A stretch of DNA of 64,000 bases from a virus: positions 1-64,000 of IMG/VR virus record IMGVR_UViG_3300005663_000045. One strand, given 5' to 3'. The position numbers were made by a program, and so were the translations under genes. The notes below the pieces were generated by a model. The model was not told where the DNA came from. It saw nothing but the letters and a program-made list of their open reading frames with translations, and made no database searches. Positions within the stretch are counted from its first letter, which is position 1, and every line of letters begins with the position of its first letter. Positions 25,664 through 57,480 of the stretch are shown piece by piece.

Positions 25664-25749
25664 GCGTTCTGTGTTCAGGGGATTTACTCCCCTCGTACCT
25701 ACCATGATAATTATCGGCGATAGTATTCGATTAGGCAAGGGAAAAAAGG

Positions 25750-25822
25750 TGCCCCGGCGAGGACTCGAACCCCGAACACGAACTTAGTAGGTACGCGTGA
25801 TTTCCAATTTCACTACCGGGGC
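25750..25822 (-). tRNA. tRNA gene, anticodon reads ACU (Ser-type?), isotype uncertain
   Basis: 73 nt with a perfect 7-bp acceptor (GCCCCGG/CCGGGGC), 4-bp D-stem (GTGA/TCAC) with GG in the D-loop, T-loop TTCGAGT and discriminator A. The anticodon stem CGTAC/GTTCG has one T-T mismatch; the loop CTACTAA places ACT at 34-36 after T33. The variable arm is only 4 nt, which does not fit a normal serine tRNA. CCA is not encoded; CCTTTTTT follows. Probably a phage-carried, partly degenerate tRNA. Confidence 0.75.
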
Positions 25823-25856: not shown

Positions 25857-25880
25857 CCCCCGCTCAGGCGGGGGTTTTTT
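25857..25880 (+). terminator. Intrinsic terminator of the late operon
   Basis: CCCCCGC (25857-25863), loop TCAG, GCGGGGG (25868-25874), then six T (25875-25880). It stops plus-strand transcripts coming through the lysis genes before they enter the oppositely oriented integrase region. Confidence 0.85.
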
Positions 25881-25991: not shown

Positions 25992-27011
25992 TTAGATCGT
26001 TGCCAGGGCTTGCCTGCCCCCATGCTCTACTGTGAACTGGGCGTAGAACCGCTCTGTCGTCTGAATAGATGAGTGGCGGAGAATCCGCGAGACATCCTCT
26101 ATCCTTCCCCCCTCCTGGAGAATGAGAGACGCGATCGTATGCCTGAATATGTGCGTGAGGATCCCCTTGCGGGCGAACTTCGGGAACTGCGGGGCGAGCT
26201 GCCTGAAATACTTGTTCCAGTTTCCGCGGGCGCGCGGGCGGAACACGAACTCATCATCTTCTTTGGGTAGCCCTTTGAGTACTCCAACGAGTTCTGGGTG
26301 CATGGGGATAGATTTGTAGCCTCCCTTCACCTTGGTGGCGCGGACACGAATGGTCGGCTGGTTGCCAAAGCGAAGGTCGCTCCAGCGAAGCCGTTCTAGT
26401 TCTCCGAGGCGCAATCCTGTATAGCTGAGGACAAGTACCGGGCACAAGTTTCCTTTTCTCGCAAAATTTCTTACCTCCTCCAACTCTTTGCGTGTCAGGT
26501 GGATGATCTCCTTGTCCTCGATTTTGGGCCGCTCGGTTTCCAGAATCGGGTTACTGGACACTTGGTGTGATCGTACAAGCCAGGAGAAAAATCTTCCCAG
26601 GTGAGCGTGTTCGGTAACGGCGGCCGCTGGTGAGAGGCCGGAATCCAAGCGGTGATTCAGGTAAACTTCTATCTTCGCGGCGGTTATTTCGTCAGGCGTC
26701 TTGATGTCGTGCATCTTCACAAACGCACGAATCGTGGTTAATTTGAAGGCGAGATAGTTCGGTTGGTTTCGGTGTTTCTCATGGGCCCCAAACTGCTCTA
26801 ACAAGCGATCTATTGGCTCGTTCGAGCCGTTGCCGTAGACTGCCTCAAGGATTTGTTGCGCCCGATATCCCGCCTCTGTTTTGGTGCCGCAGTGGAGGCT
26901 GATCCGCTGCTGTCTTTTGCTCGGGGTCGGGTGGGAATACCAAAAGATGTCACCCCTTTTGTAGATGGTTCCCTTCTTGACCCACCGCCTGTACCACGCC
27001 GTCTTATTCAT
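25992..27011 (-). CDS. int: Tyrosine recombinase / phage integrase
   Basis: 339 aa. An N-terminal arm-binding-like basic region and a SAM-like core-binding domain (~65-155) precede the catalytic domain. Catalytic residues are visible: R201 (TGLRLGELERLRW), K227 or K229, H287 and R290 (HIFRHT), H313 (LRHSS) and Y323. It integrates and, with an excisionase, excises the phage. It is transcribed away from the repressor. Neighbouring tRNA and palindrome at 25.58-25.82 kb make that side a candidate attP. Confidence 0.93.
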   Translation of the reverse strand: MNKTAWYRRWVKKGTIYKRGDIFWYSHPTPSKRQQRISLHCGTKTEAGYRAQQILEAVYGNGSNEPIDRLLEQFGAHEKHRNQPNYLAFKLTTIRAFVKMHDIKTPDEITAAKIEVYLNHRLDSGLSPAAAVTEHAHLGRFFSWLVRSHQVSSNPILETERPKIEDKEIIHLTRKELEEVRNFARKGNLCPVLVLSYTGLRLGELERLRWSDLRFGNQPTIRVRATKVKGGYKSIPMHPELVGVLKGLPKEDDEFVFRPRARGNWNKYFRQLAPQFPKFARKGILTHIFRHTIASLILQEGGRIEDVSRILRHSSIQTTERFYAQFTVEHGGRQALATI

Positions 27012-27825: not shown

Positions 27826-28062
27826 ATGCGAGCTGGTGTGAGTGCGCGAGCAAGCGGGCCAGGAACTCGGTACCTGGTAAAAGCATTTCGCAAGCAAATC
27901 AACCTCCTGTCCCCAGGGGGCCGAGAGAGGTATCTGGCCTTTCTTCTTACTCAATTCGATGACGCTGCCGTTCCTGTTCAACAAGTTCAGCCAACTTTGC
28001 GATCTCCCGAAGCCGTAGATGGTCAGGGAGCTGCCGCAGATACTCAGTTCCCTTTGCGGTAA
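27826..28062 (+). CDS. Small basic protein convergent with the repressor gene (78 aa)
   Basis: It has a strong promoter and GGGAGG 8 bases before the ATG. The N-terminal ~45 residues (LVKAFRKQINLLSPGGRERYLAF) look like a folded helical segment; the last third overlaps the 3' end of the repressor gene on the other strand by 116 bases and looks less protein-like. It could be a Cro-like antagonist, or mainly a source of antisense RNA to the repressor. Function unknown. Confidence 0.5.
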   Translation: MRAGVSARASGPGTRYLVKAFRKQINLLSPGGRERYLAFLLTQFDDAAVPVQQVQPTLRSPEAVDGQGAAADTQFPLR

Positions 28063-28315
28063 TAGCCTCTTCCGCAGGCAGGAATATTTCTGTGGTCATT
28101 AATTCGGTGTCTGGGATTTCCAGTACCTCCGCCAATCTGAAAATGCGTGAACCTCGGGGGATTCGTTCCCCACGCTCGTAGCGCGATATTTGAGTGTGCT
28201 GATCAGTCCTGAGACCGATAGCAACAGCGATTTCTTGCTGCGTCATGCCACGGCGGTTTCGCCATTCTTTCAGTTTCGCTGGATCAAATACGCTCATGCC
28301 TTGCATTGTATCCAA
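27947..28315 (-). CDS. XRE-family HTH repressor (CI/Cro-like)
   Basis: 122 aa from the TTG at 28315, which has GAGG 5 bases upstream; ATGs at 28306 and 28297 are alternatives. The HTH is LKEWRNRRGMTQQEIAVAIG followed by QISRYERGERIPRGSRIFRLAEVL (~15-65). The C-terminal part is a short acidic/basic helix, with no LexA-type peptidase domain. It is divergent from the early promoter at 28417 and is the obvious lysogeny regulator. Confidence 0.85.
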   Translation of the reverse strand: MDTMQGMSVFDPAKLKEWRNRRGMTQQEIAVAIGLRTDQHTQISRYERGERIPRGSRIFRLAEVLEIPDTELMTTEIFLPAEEAITAKGTEYLRQLPDHLRLREIAKLAELVEQERQRHRIE

Positions 28316-28358: not shown

Positions 28359-28416
28359 CTTGCTCGGATTAGGCCAGTAAAGTCCACGGTGCGGCCTAGA
28401 AACGATACAAAAAGAC

Positions 28417-28445
28417 TTGATATCTGGTCTAGTCCTGCCGATAAT
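28417..28445 (+). promoter_or_regulatory. Rightward early promoter
   Basis: TTGATA (28417-28422), 17-bp spacer, GATAAT (28440-28445), predicted start near 28452. It lies just right of the repressor gene and reads into the structured leader and the excisionase-like gene, so it is the PR equivalent. Confidence 0.65.
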
Positions 28446-28451
28446 GTCTCA

Positions 28452-28609
28452 TGTAAGGAGCTAACAAGCAATGACTGGCACGCTAGCCAAATCAGTTCTC
28501 TGTAGAAGCGAAAGCCGGGACGAACCTGCGGGCCGGGCCGGTTTCTACTATGGAGGGTCCGAAGGCGAGGCTAGCGTGCCGATAGCTGACGGGCCCTCCT
28601 TCTTTTTTG
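28452..28609 (+). ncRNA. Structured early leader with intrinsic terminator (attenuator-like)
   Basis: GGCACGCTAGCC (28477-28488) is perfectly complementary to 28569-28580. GTAGAA (28502-28507) pairs with TTCTAC (28543-28548). A 9-bp stem GGAGGGTCC (28552-28560) with GGGCCCTCC (28591-28599), one G-U, is followed by TTCTTTTTT, an intrinsic terminator. The 3' half of the 12-bp helix lies in the loop of the terminator hairpin, so the two either form a pseudoknot or compete. This is the design of an attenuator or a put-like antitermination RNA. An ATG at 28471 after TAAGGAG could encode a leader peptide. Confidence 0.6.
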
Positions 28610-28744
28610 ATGGGTCGAGCATGGACGGGACGAGAACGCAAGGATGCGTGGGGGCGGTCAATAATCACTCCTATCCTCTCTTTGGCCGCCTTGCCGGAAC
28701 AACCCCTCCTCCATTAACGACAAGATATTCTAGCAGGGGAGCGA

Positions 28745-28945
28745 ATGATGTCCAAGGAAAAACCAAAGGAAAAGATGCTGATGAACCAGAAGGAGGCCGT
28801 CGCCTTCTTGGGCATAGGGCGGACGGAGTTTTGGGAGGGCATCTATCCAATATTCAGGGACAAGAAACTGTGGCCGCCCATGTTCAAGCGGAAATACTAT
28901 CCTCGCGATGTTCTCTTGGAGGTCATTCGCGGGGAGTGGAACTGA
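28745..28945 (+). CDS. Excisionase / MerR-like HTH protein
   Basis: 66 aa; ATGATG after GGGGAG. The core MNQKEAVAFLGIGRTEFWEG ... YYPRDVLLEVI is a winged-helix helix-turn-helix of the excisionase/MerR type, ending in a short positively charged then acidic tail. First gene of the early operon, next to integrase and repressor, so a recombination directionality factor is likely. The larger overlapping open frame at 28471-29508 is regarded as chance. Confidence 0.72.
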   Translation: MMSKEKPKEKMLMNQKEAVAFLGIGRTEFWEGIYPIFRDKKLWPPMFKRKYYPRDVLLEVIRGEWN

Positions 28946-28980
28946 CGAGACTCCTATCTGTAGATGCAACGGTGAAGGGT

Positions 28981-29015
28981 GCGCCCCTGCTTTGTGGCGG
29001 GGGCGCATTGTTTTT
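28981..29015 (+). terminator. Second early terminator
   Basis: GCGCCCC (28981-28987) pairs with GGGGCGC (29000-29006), then ATTGTTTTT. It lies between the excisionase-like gene and the zinc protein, so the rest of the early operon needs readthrough or antitermination. Confidence 0.75.
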
Positions 29016-29020
29016 CTCTG

Positions 29021-29353
29021 ATGGGCGAAACGATGGAACGAAACGCACGGACGCGGAAGTCCATTCGGGAATACTTGAAGATCGAGACTGCTCCTTTTTG
29101 TTCGGCTTGCGGGCGAGAAGTGGAAGCCTGTTCCCGGAGCAGCAAGGCCGTCGTCTGCTTTCGGTGCACGGCGATTGCAGTCTCCACCCCGAGGAAGCCG
29201 GTCACCAATACCCGGAAGTGTCCCGACTGCGAAGGCCCCCTCGGTCCTCGATGCCGGTTTTGCCCGGAATGCGCTACAAAACGCCGCCGAACTGCCCAAA
29301 GAAGGGCGACACAAAGAAATCGAACTACGCTTTCTGGTGCTGTCAACAGTTAA
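29021..29353 (+). CDS. Double zinc-ribbon basic protein; ends inside repeat element A
   Basis: About 110 aa from the ATG at 29021 (29033 and GTG 28979 are alternatives; no clear RBS). Two CxxC pairs form one ribbon (CSACG ... CFRC) and a second ribbon follows (CPDCEG ... CPEC), then an Arg-rich tail. Short, Arg-rich and directly after a terminator, it is a candidate RNA-binding antiterminator, by position only. Its last codons (AVNS, stop) are part of the repeat that recurs at 57.4 kb. Confidence 0.6.
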   Translation: MGETMERNARTRKSIREYLKIETAPFCSACGREVEACSRSSKAVVCFRCTAIAVSTPRKPVTNTRKCPDCEGPLGPRCRFCPECATKRRRTAQRRATQRNRTTLSGAVNS

Positions 29354-29451
29354 GCGGTTTTGACATGCAGCAAACCCCTATAAACAGGCTTGCCTATCTT
29401 AACACAAACACAAGGCCGACCCGTAGGGCCTCGGCGCAGTTAACTGTTGAC
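29342..29451. repeat. Repeat element copy A with 12-bp inverted ends
   Basis: GTCAACAGTTAA (29342-29353) and TTAACTGTTGAC (29440-29451) are perfect inverted ends. Between them, 29372-29404 matches copy B (57404-57436) at 29 of 33 positions (AAACCCCT..AAACAGGCTT.CCTAT.TTAACA). The spacing of ends and core is nearly the same in both copies, and in both the left end supplies the stop codon of the preceding gene. See copy B at 57375. Confidence 0.8.
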
Positions 29452-29507
29452 AAGGCGATCCTGGGGCATCCTGGCGCGTTTGTCAACCAACGAGAGGCGA
29501 GGATCTG

Positions 29508-29714
29508 ATGCTAACTAGACAAGAGTACAAAATTCTCCGGCTCGTCCTTTTTGGGTACGAACAACAGGAAGTCGCTAAGCGCCTAAGTCTCAACACGGCC
29601 ACTGTAAGCCGGAGTCTTGATTCGGTGGAGAGGAAGAATCCGCTCTTGGGGTGTGCTTTAGGGGTAATCAAGAAAGTACACCATCAACAACAATTAGCGG
29701 AGGCCGTCGCATGA
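29508..29714 (+). CDS. LuxR/sigma-region-4-like HTH protein
   Basis: 68 aa. LTRQEYKILRLVLFGYEQQEVAKRLSLNTATVSRSL is a classic four-helix HTH (GerE or sigma70 region 4 type) with almost nothing else attached. It is the first gene right of repeat A and is ATGA-coupled to the next gene. A small transcription regulator of the early operon is likely. RBS GAGGCGAGGATCTG. Confidence 0.75.
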   Translation: MLTRQEYKILRLVLFGYEQQEVAKRLSLNTATVSRSLDSVERKNPLLGCALGVIKKVHHQQQLAEAVA

Positions 29715-57061: not shown

Positions 57062-57386
57062 GTACAAAAGGTCGCATACACAGGCTGCCGGGCAGACAAT
57101 TCCCGATTGTCGCGTCTTAACTGCTGGAAGTAGCTGGGACGACGGTTCGACCATTGATGTCTGGCTTTTCCCTTCCGACCAGCGTACCCGCATACCTATC
57201 GCGGCTTTCCGCAAGTTTTGCGAAGAGGGCCTTGAGATCTGTGACGCGGCTGAGGCCCCCAAGCTTCGCGTCGCACCCACCGGAGACGAAGATCACCCCC
57301 TGGGCTTCCGCGAGGGGGATAAGATCTGGGTAAAATGGGCTTCGGAAGACGATCAACCTTCCGATTCTCCTGCCGTCAACAGTTAA
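57054..57386 (+). CDS. Hypothetical protein ending inside repeat element B (110 aa)
   Basis: Basic N-terminus (KYKRSHTQ), then WDDGSTIDVWLFP and IPIAAFRKFCEEGLEI, a small alpha/beta pattern. Contains a third copy of the repeat in frame (APTGDEDHP). Its final codons (AVNS, stop) are the left end of repeat element B, exactly as the gene at 29021 ends in element A. Confidence 0.55.
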   Translation: MAKYKRSHTQAAGQTIPDCRVLTAGSSWDDGSTIDVWLFPSDQRTRIPIAAFRKFCEEGLEICDAAEAPKLRVAPTGDEDHPLGFREGDKIWVKWASEDDQPSDSPAVNS

Positions 57387-57480
57387 CCGATTCTAGGGCC
57401 ACAAAACCCCTGCAAACAGGCTTACCTATTTTAACATTCAGGTGAGGGCGGGTCTTACCCCTTATTCAAAGTTAACTGTT
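57375..57480. repeat. Repeat element copy B
   Basis: GTCAACAGTTAA (57375-57386), core 57404-57436 (29/33 identical to copy A) and TTAACTGTT (57472-57480), a shortened right end. The element lies 28 kb from copy A in the same orientation. Confidence 0.78.

Follow-up and report, generated by a model that had tools for sequence, protein, structure and literature searches.

A temperate-phage early leader with two predicted intrinsic terminators, a helix reaching into the loop of the first and a long open frame: a possible bistable attenuator

In the trp, pyrBI and rplJL leaders and in riboswitches, an intrinsic terminator lies between the promoter and the first gene, an alternative helix forms earlier than the terminator, and the outcome is altered by the position of a ribosome. 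The early leader analysed here is alike in these respects, the effect of the ribosome being that of a folding model, and differs from these attenuators in that the partner of its helix is the loop rather than the stem of the terminator, in that its leader frame has neither a stop codon nor a run of a single amino acid before the terminator, and in being set in a temperate phage's early operon. The Gifsy-1 IsrK locus (PMC4825925) likewise combines, in a prophage leader, an early terminator with long helices that are alternatives to each other and an upstream frame translationally coupled to the next gene; there, a short upstream ORF follows the terminator and action is in trans, whereas the phage frame begins before the first terminator and crosses two of them, and the observed likeness is one of layout. 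In P4 immunity, as set out in PMC4825925, the CI RNA is a product of the leader that causes termination by base-pairing with leader segments complementary to it; the present locus shares complementary segments in the early leader and premature termination as a possible control point, and differs in the single complementary target found, which lies upstream, and in having a protein repressor gene. The put RNAs of HK022 (PMC9378689) are structured RNAs located directly after the early promoter of a temperate phage and followed by terminators, as here, but the present leader has no put sequence or structure. Intrinsic termination is prevented by translation (PMC5021804); in E. coli, the ribosome has little effect on terminators lying within the first 100 bp of a coding region, those farther on are partly or wholly suppressed, and a terminator 28 bp past a stop codon keeps approximately 90% of its activity (PMC4824070). 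A reading frame crosses intrinsic terminators in the present leader too, but, compared with those intragenic terminators (PMC4824070, PMC5021804), the frame is not protein-like and overlaps two other genes.

The analysis was performed on a 64 kb window, meaning the whole stretch of DNA that was analysed, which is a section of a 68,631-base virus record. It was read as temperate-phage DNA because an integrase gene and a divergent HTH repressor gene are followed by a long rightward early region. The features referred to below are as follows (positions are those of the window).

25992-27011, minus strand: integrase gene.
27947-28306, minus strand: divergent HTH repressor gene (Pfam HTH_3, E=1.7e-12; PHROGs transcriptional regulators/repressors).
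28413-28430, no strand assigned: palindrome AGACTTGATATCTGGTCT covering the -35 box, with no other copy within 2 mismatches.
28417-28445, plus strand: early promoter candidate TTGATA-17-GATAAT.
28454-28473, plus strand: Shine-Dalgarno (SD) sequence TAAGGAG and start codon (AUG) of the leader frame, with a predicted anti-SD pairing of -8.4 kcal/mol.
28471-29508, plus strand: 345-codon open frame (the leader frame), spanning T1, the HTH gene, T2 and the zinc-ribbon gene.
28477-28488, plus strand: arm A of the 12-bp helix, GGCACGCTAGCC, which is codons 3-6 of the leader frame.
28502-28548, plus strand: hairpin immediately 5' of T1 in the terminator conformer.
28552-28611, plus strand: predicted intrinsic terminator T1, with stem 28552-28561/28590-28599 and tail TTCTTTTTT at 28600-28608.
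28569-28580, plus strand: arm A' inside the T1 loop, GGCTAGCGTGCC.
28727-28754, minus strand: leftward promoter-like site TGGACA-16-TAGAAT with an extended -10, a consensus match alone.
28745-28945, plus strand: gene for a small winged-HTH protein, weakly excisionase-like (codon signal; phrog_668, E=0.0018).
28978-29020, plus strand: predicted intrinsic terminator T2, with a 14-bp stem extending from 28978 to 29009 and a T-rich tail.
29033-29353, plus strand: gene for a Cys-rich zinc-ribbon-like protein (Pfam DZR, E=5e-4, below the curated cut-off).

Public viral contigs were searched with the HTH gene, zinc-ribbon gene, repressor, exonuclease, terminase, leader frame and integrase as queries and yielded no close relative; bacterial genome contigs (searched with the repressor) and phages and plasmids gave distant matches at best. 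Across all of these collections, distant matches were limited to the repressor, exonuclease, terminase and integrase. A tRNA-Ser-like gene with the unusual anticodon ACT (25748-25822, minus strand) adjoins the integrase gene and is a possible remnant of an attachment site.

The early promoter candidate is the top plus-strand promoter match between 28.4 and 48.3 kb, a region with 8 such matches against 14.8 +/- 3.8 in shuffled sequences, that is, fewer than in the shuffles. From its position, the transcript is expected to start near 28452, approximately 2 nt upstream of TAAGGAG. The palindrome over the -35 box is, judged by its sequence and position, probably a repressor operator. The leftward promoter-like site (28754-28727) points to the repressor gene, and RNA started there would be antisense to the leader; the site could give rise to such an antisense RNA or act as a second repressor promoter, as lambda PRE is.

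Terminators were scanned for in the 64 kb on both strands as 10-bp stems with at least 6 G-C pairs and at most 1 G-U pair, loops of at most 40 nt and, among the 9 bases that follow, 7 T. The sole matches were T1 and T2, and 20 shuffled sequences, scanned on one strand, gave none. T1 has a 10-bp stem, including one G-U pair, and a 28-nt loop, and was absent from the standard terminator scan because the loop limit there is 8 nt. T2 was formed in the folding model with a probability of 0.90-0.98 in all contexts tried, and has no competing helix. In both, a G+C-rich stem is immediately followed by a T-rich tract. The initial annotation had recognised a terminator at 28552-28599 and another, with correct coordinates, after an excisionase-like gene, and had drawn the perfect 12-bp helix between 28477-28488 and 28569-28580 as reaching into the loop of the first terminator; all its coordinates are confirmed, both terminators stand out within the 64 kb and arm A' lies in the T1 loop. 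The two terminators flank one small HTH gene downstream of the sole good early promoter, and it is well supported, from the sequence, that RNA polymerase would have to pass both of these strong predicted terminators before reaching the early genes. Terminators with shorter stems also occur in the window, for example near 25860. The downstream flanks of T1 (28600-28648) and T2 (29010-29055) resemble each other (TGATGGG...CGA...AACGCA.GGA.GCG), with equal similarity in 4 of 2000 shuffles, and may be a duplicated terminator module.

The HTH gene between the terminators has a clear codon signal. Its description as excisionase-like is plausible, given the phrog_668 match and excisionases as the top structural matches, but these matches are weak (Foldseek E=0.36, Z 4-4.5), and the protein has no match in Pfam or NCBIfam. 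The zinc-ribbon gene encodes five CxxC motifs and has a weak ribosome-binding site (SD energy -2.8) and no codon signal of its own. Two elements of approximately 110 bp, at 29341-29452 and 57374-57480, are bounded by inverted repeats GTCAACAGTTAA...AGTTAACTGTT(GAC) and share a conserved core AAACCCCTNNAAACAGGCTTRCCTATYTTAACA (29/33 identical), and each starts inside the final codons of a gene (GTC AAC AGT TAA). The core was missing from viral contigs in an exact search and the element had no phage or plasmid match; it is possibly a recombination site or mobile element. A small HTH protein of the GerE/sigma region 4 type is encoded at 29508-29714 in the early region, directly after the 345-codon frame, and could be a regulator.

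All 12 pairs of the helix between arms A and A' are Watson-Crick, and 80 nt separate the arms. The helix length, which was assessed post hoc after the helix had been noticed, was reached in none of 1000 dinucleotide-shuffled versions of the 160-nt leader. The 64 kb as a whole contain 5 perfect inverted repeats of 12 bp or more within 200 nt, where 0.75 are expected, and the helix alone, away from its leader setting, is therefore weak evidence. For the transcript 28452-28611, as for an attenuator, two folds of similar stability were predicted, one of which contains the terminator: -62.2 kcal/mol for the terminator state and -61.8 kcal/mol for the helix state, with equilibrium shares of approximately 0.32 and 0.68, respectively. 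In transcripts with 3' ends at 28580-28598 the helix had a probability of 1.00 in the folding model, and it would be able to form first since the 3' strand of T1 is still incomplete at these ends. Later 3' ends moved the balance mostly to T1 (0.97 at 28640), by which point the polymerase is already beyond the T-tract; as T1 is favoured in most contexts with a longer transcript, a switch would depend wholly on timing. When the upstream 97 nt were shuffled or swapped for other pieces of the window, T1 was weakened to this extent in 1.3% and 0.9% of cases, respectively. Modelled mutants with either arm broken gave T1 at 0.997-0.998, and those with the pairing restored gave the helix at 0.999. Each of arms A and A' can also form a small hairpin, and the 6-nt loops of the two are complementary. 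Extended by the three bases that follow it (28477-28491), arm A has a second, imperfect partner downstream of T1 (28681-28695, 11/15).

The initial annotation had termed the helix competing. In nested models the two structures exclude each other, but the helix pairs with the T1 loop and has no base in common with the T1 stem, and the energy of a pseudoknot holding both was roughly estimated at -58.6 to -63.6 kcal/mol, the folding program itself taking no account of pseudoknots or kinetics. With a similar estimated energy for that structure, competition is a prediction, and the possible pseudoknot is the main weakness of reading the leader as a switch. Thermodynamic support for a switch comes from the isoenergetic states, the ability of the helix to form first and the comparable weakening of T1 in approximately 1% of controls, but the mutual exclusion of the two states depends on the model.

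The initial annotation had overlooked the Shine-Dalgarno sequence and AUG that make arm A codons 3-6 of a frame, and the crossing of both terminators by that frame. The SD pairing is equalled or surpassed at 3.3% of ATGs in the window, and the frame terminates in TGATG, overlapping the start codon of the next gene. In the alternative frames of other plus-strand genes, 28,220 codons in all, no open run exceeds 123 codons, against 345 here. Multiplying segment probabilities gave a chance of approximately 1e-7 to 2e-6, depending on the codon model, for this openness, a figure to be discounted because the frame length, too, was assessed after being noticed. As a conventional gene the frame was rejected: its codon signal is nil, no homologue was found in viral contigs, by tblastn or in Pfam or NCBIfam, and a single-sequence structure model reached a pLDDT of 29.9, so that the product is probably not a folded protein. 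The openness stands, and given the lack of codon signal, homologue and foldable model, the frame may owe its openness to luck, or to something other than its product. The ribosome-binding site and frame overlap the regulatory helix, an arrangement suited to translational coupling if the frame is translated, although initiation may be inefficient, since the helix overlaps the start. A modelled ribosome at leader codons 1-10 gave T1 a probability of 1.00, and one at codons 25-34 a probability of 0.00.

The reading preferred here, tentatively and with belief short of even, is that the leader is a bistable attenuator that guards a temperate phage's early operon, with T1 under the control of the helix and T2 under that of translation. 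During transcription of the leader, arm A would pair with arm A' over 12 bp ahead of the emergence of the T1 3' strand, and this pairing would delay T1 formation so that the polymerase continues. Were arm A held as A' emerges, T1 would be freed and transcription would stop approximately 155 nt from the start. Arm A might be held by a protein, by an antisense RNA or by a ribosome that is initiating, or has stalled, at the leader AUG; an antisense RNA from the leftward site at 28754-28727 would suit this element of the model. A ribosome farther along the leader frame would instead mask T1 and let the polymerase pass. T2 would be passed under cover of the ribosomes of the 345-codon frame, or with a further factor. 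This division of labour follows from the distances of the terminators, taken with the measurements in E. coli cited above. T1 starts 81 nt downstream of the leader AUG, where ribosomes would come too late, and would need a device of its own, the helix; T2 lies approximately 507 nt downstream of the AUG and 32 nt past the stop codon of the HTH gene, whose ribosomes would not suppress it, and open-frame translation would. A narrower version, in which a frame without useful product is kept open solely to let ribosomes escort the polymerase past the two terminators, with the helix covering the start-proximal T1 and no dedicated factor involved, is thought quite improbable.

The initial annotation had stated that early expression must depend on antitermination, by a put-like RNA, a protein or a switch. 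Two strong predicted terminators do precede the early genes, but the claim is too strong, as early expression could equally be explained by partial read-through, by weak promoters farther downstream or by suppression coupled to ribosomes. Processive antitermination, in which an N, Q, AlpA or GafZ-type protein of phage or host, or another RNA, boards the polymerase near the promoter and crosses T1 and T2, is nevertheless the foremost alternative to the bistable attenuator, if itself unlikely; the helix would then be part of a loading RNA, or incidental. Serial terminators behind a single promoter are its classic layout, a single mechanism would serve both T1 and T2, the latter of which has no competing helix, and many early proteins are of unassigned function. 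AlpA (PMC7969949) and GafZ (PMC11150451) act at promoters with intrinsic terminators downstream. Against it, no antiterminator protein was recognised among the early proteins, the leader has no Rfam match, and a direct search for a put-like RNA was negative: a model built from HK022 putL and putR, which were located through their mutual similarity, recovered its own sources at E=8.9e-22 and 2.7e-19 and matched nothing in the leader at E values up to 10, and the sequence similarity between leader and put was at chance (28/300 and 97/300). The AlpA motif GGGACGN5GGTA (PMC7969949) was missing, by eye, from the promoter spacer TCTGGTCTAGTCCTGCC between the -35 and the -10. Rather unlikely also is an ordinary leader, in which T1 and T2 are real and merely insulate the operon or, by terminating part of the transcripts, reduce early transcription, while helix and frame are due to chance. 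Leaky terminators are common behind phage early promoters, inverted repeats of this length are expected approximately 0.75 times per 64 kb and the frame is without codon signal; yet the helix was matched in 0/1000 shuffled leaders, T1 was similarly weakened in approximately 1% of controls, and the open run is nearly three times the longest control run.

Two further readings are considered very improbable, and about equally so. In one, resembling P4 immunity, the short terminated leader RNA, which carries A' in its loop, would bind arm A of new transcripts in trans and block both the helix and leader translation, thereby promoting its own termination and keeping the prophage silent. The P4 CI RNA is a precedent (PMC4825925), and the hairpins of A and A' with their complementary 6-nt loops are in keeping with it; but P4 has seqA and seqC, whereas a second A-like target downstream is absent here within 2 mismatches, a protein repressor and an operator-like palindrome are already present, and the leader RNA bears its own arm A. 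In the other, the arms would be one quasi-palindromic protein-binding DNA site (GGC-N6-GCC) present twice in opposite orientation and acting by looping or repression. Each arm is indeed quasi-palindromic and several HTH proteins are encoded near by, but the second copy is located precisely in the terminator loop, and further arm copies were rejected as operators, their number in the window being at chance level (6 matches within 2 mismatches against 5.2 expected).

The elements of the leader are real and their combination is unusual. The mechanism of the bistable attenuator is a reasoned prediction, put forward with modest confidence as a variation on transcription attenuation. If it is true, nothing but ribosomes and the timing of RNA folding would gate the early operon, the decision on early genes would be tied to the translational state of the host, and a purpose would be given to an unrecognisable open frame that annotation would label a false gene or drop.
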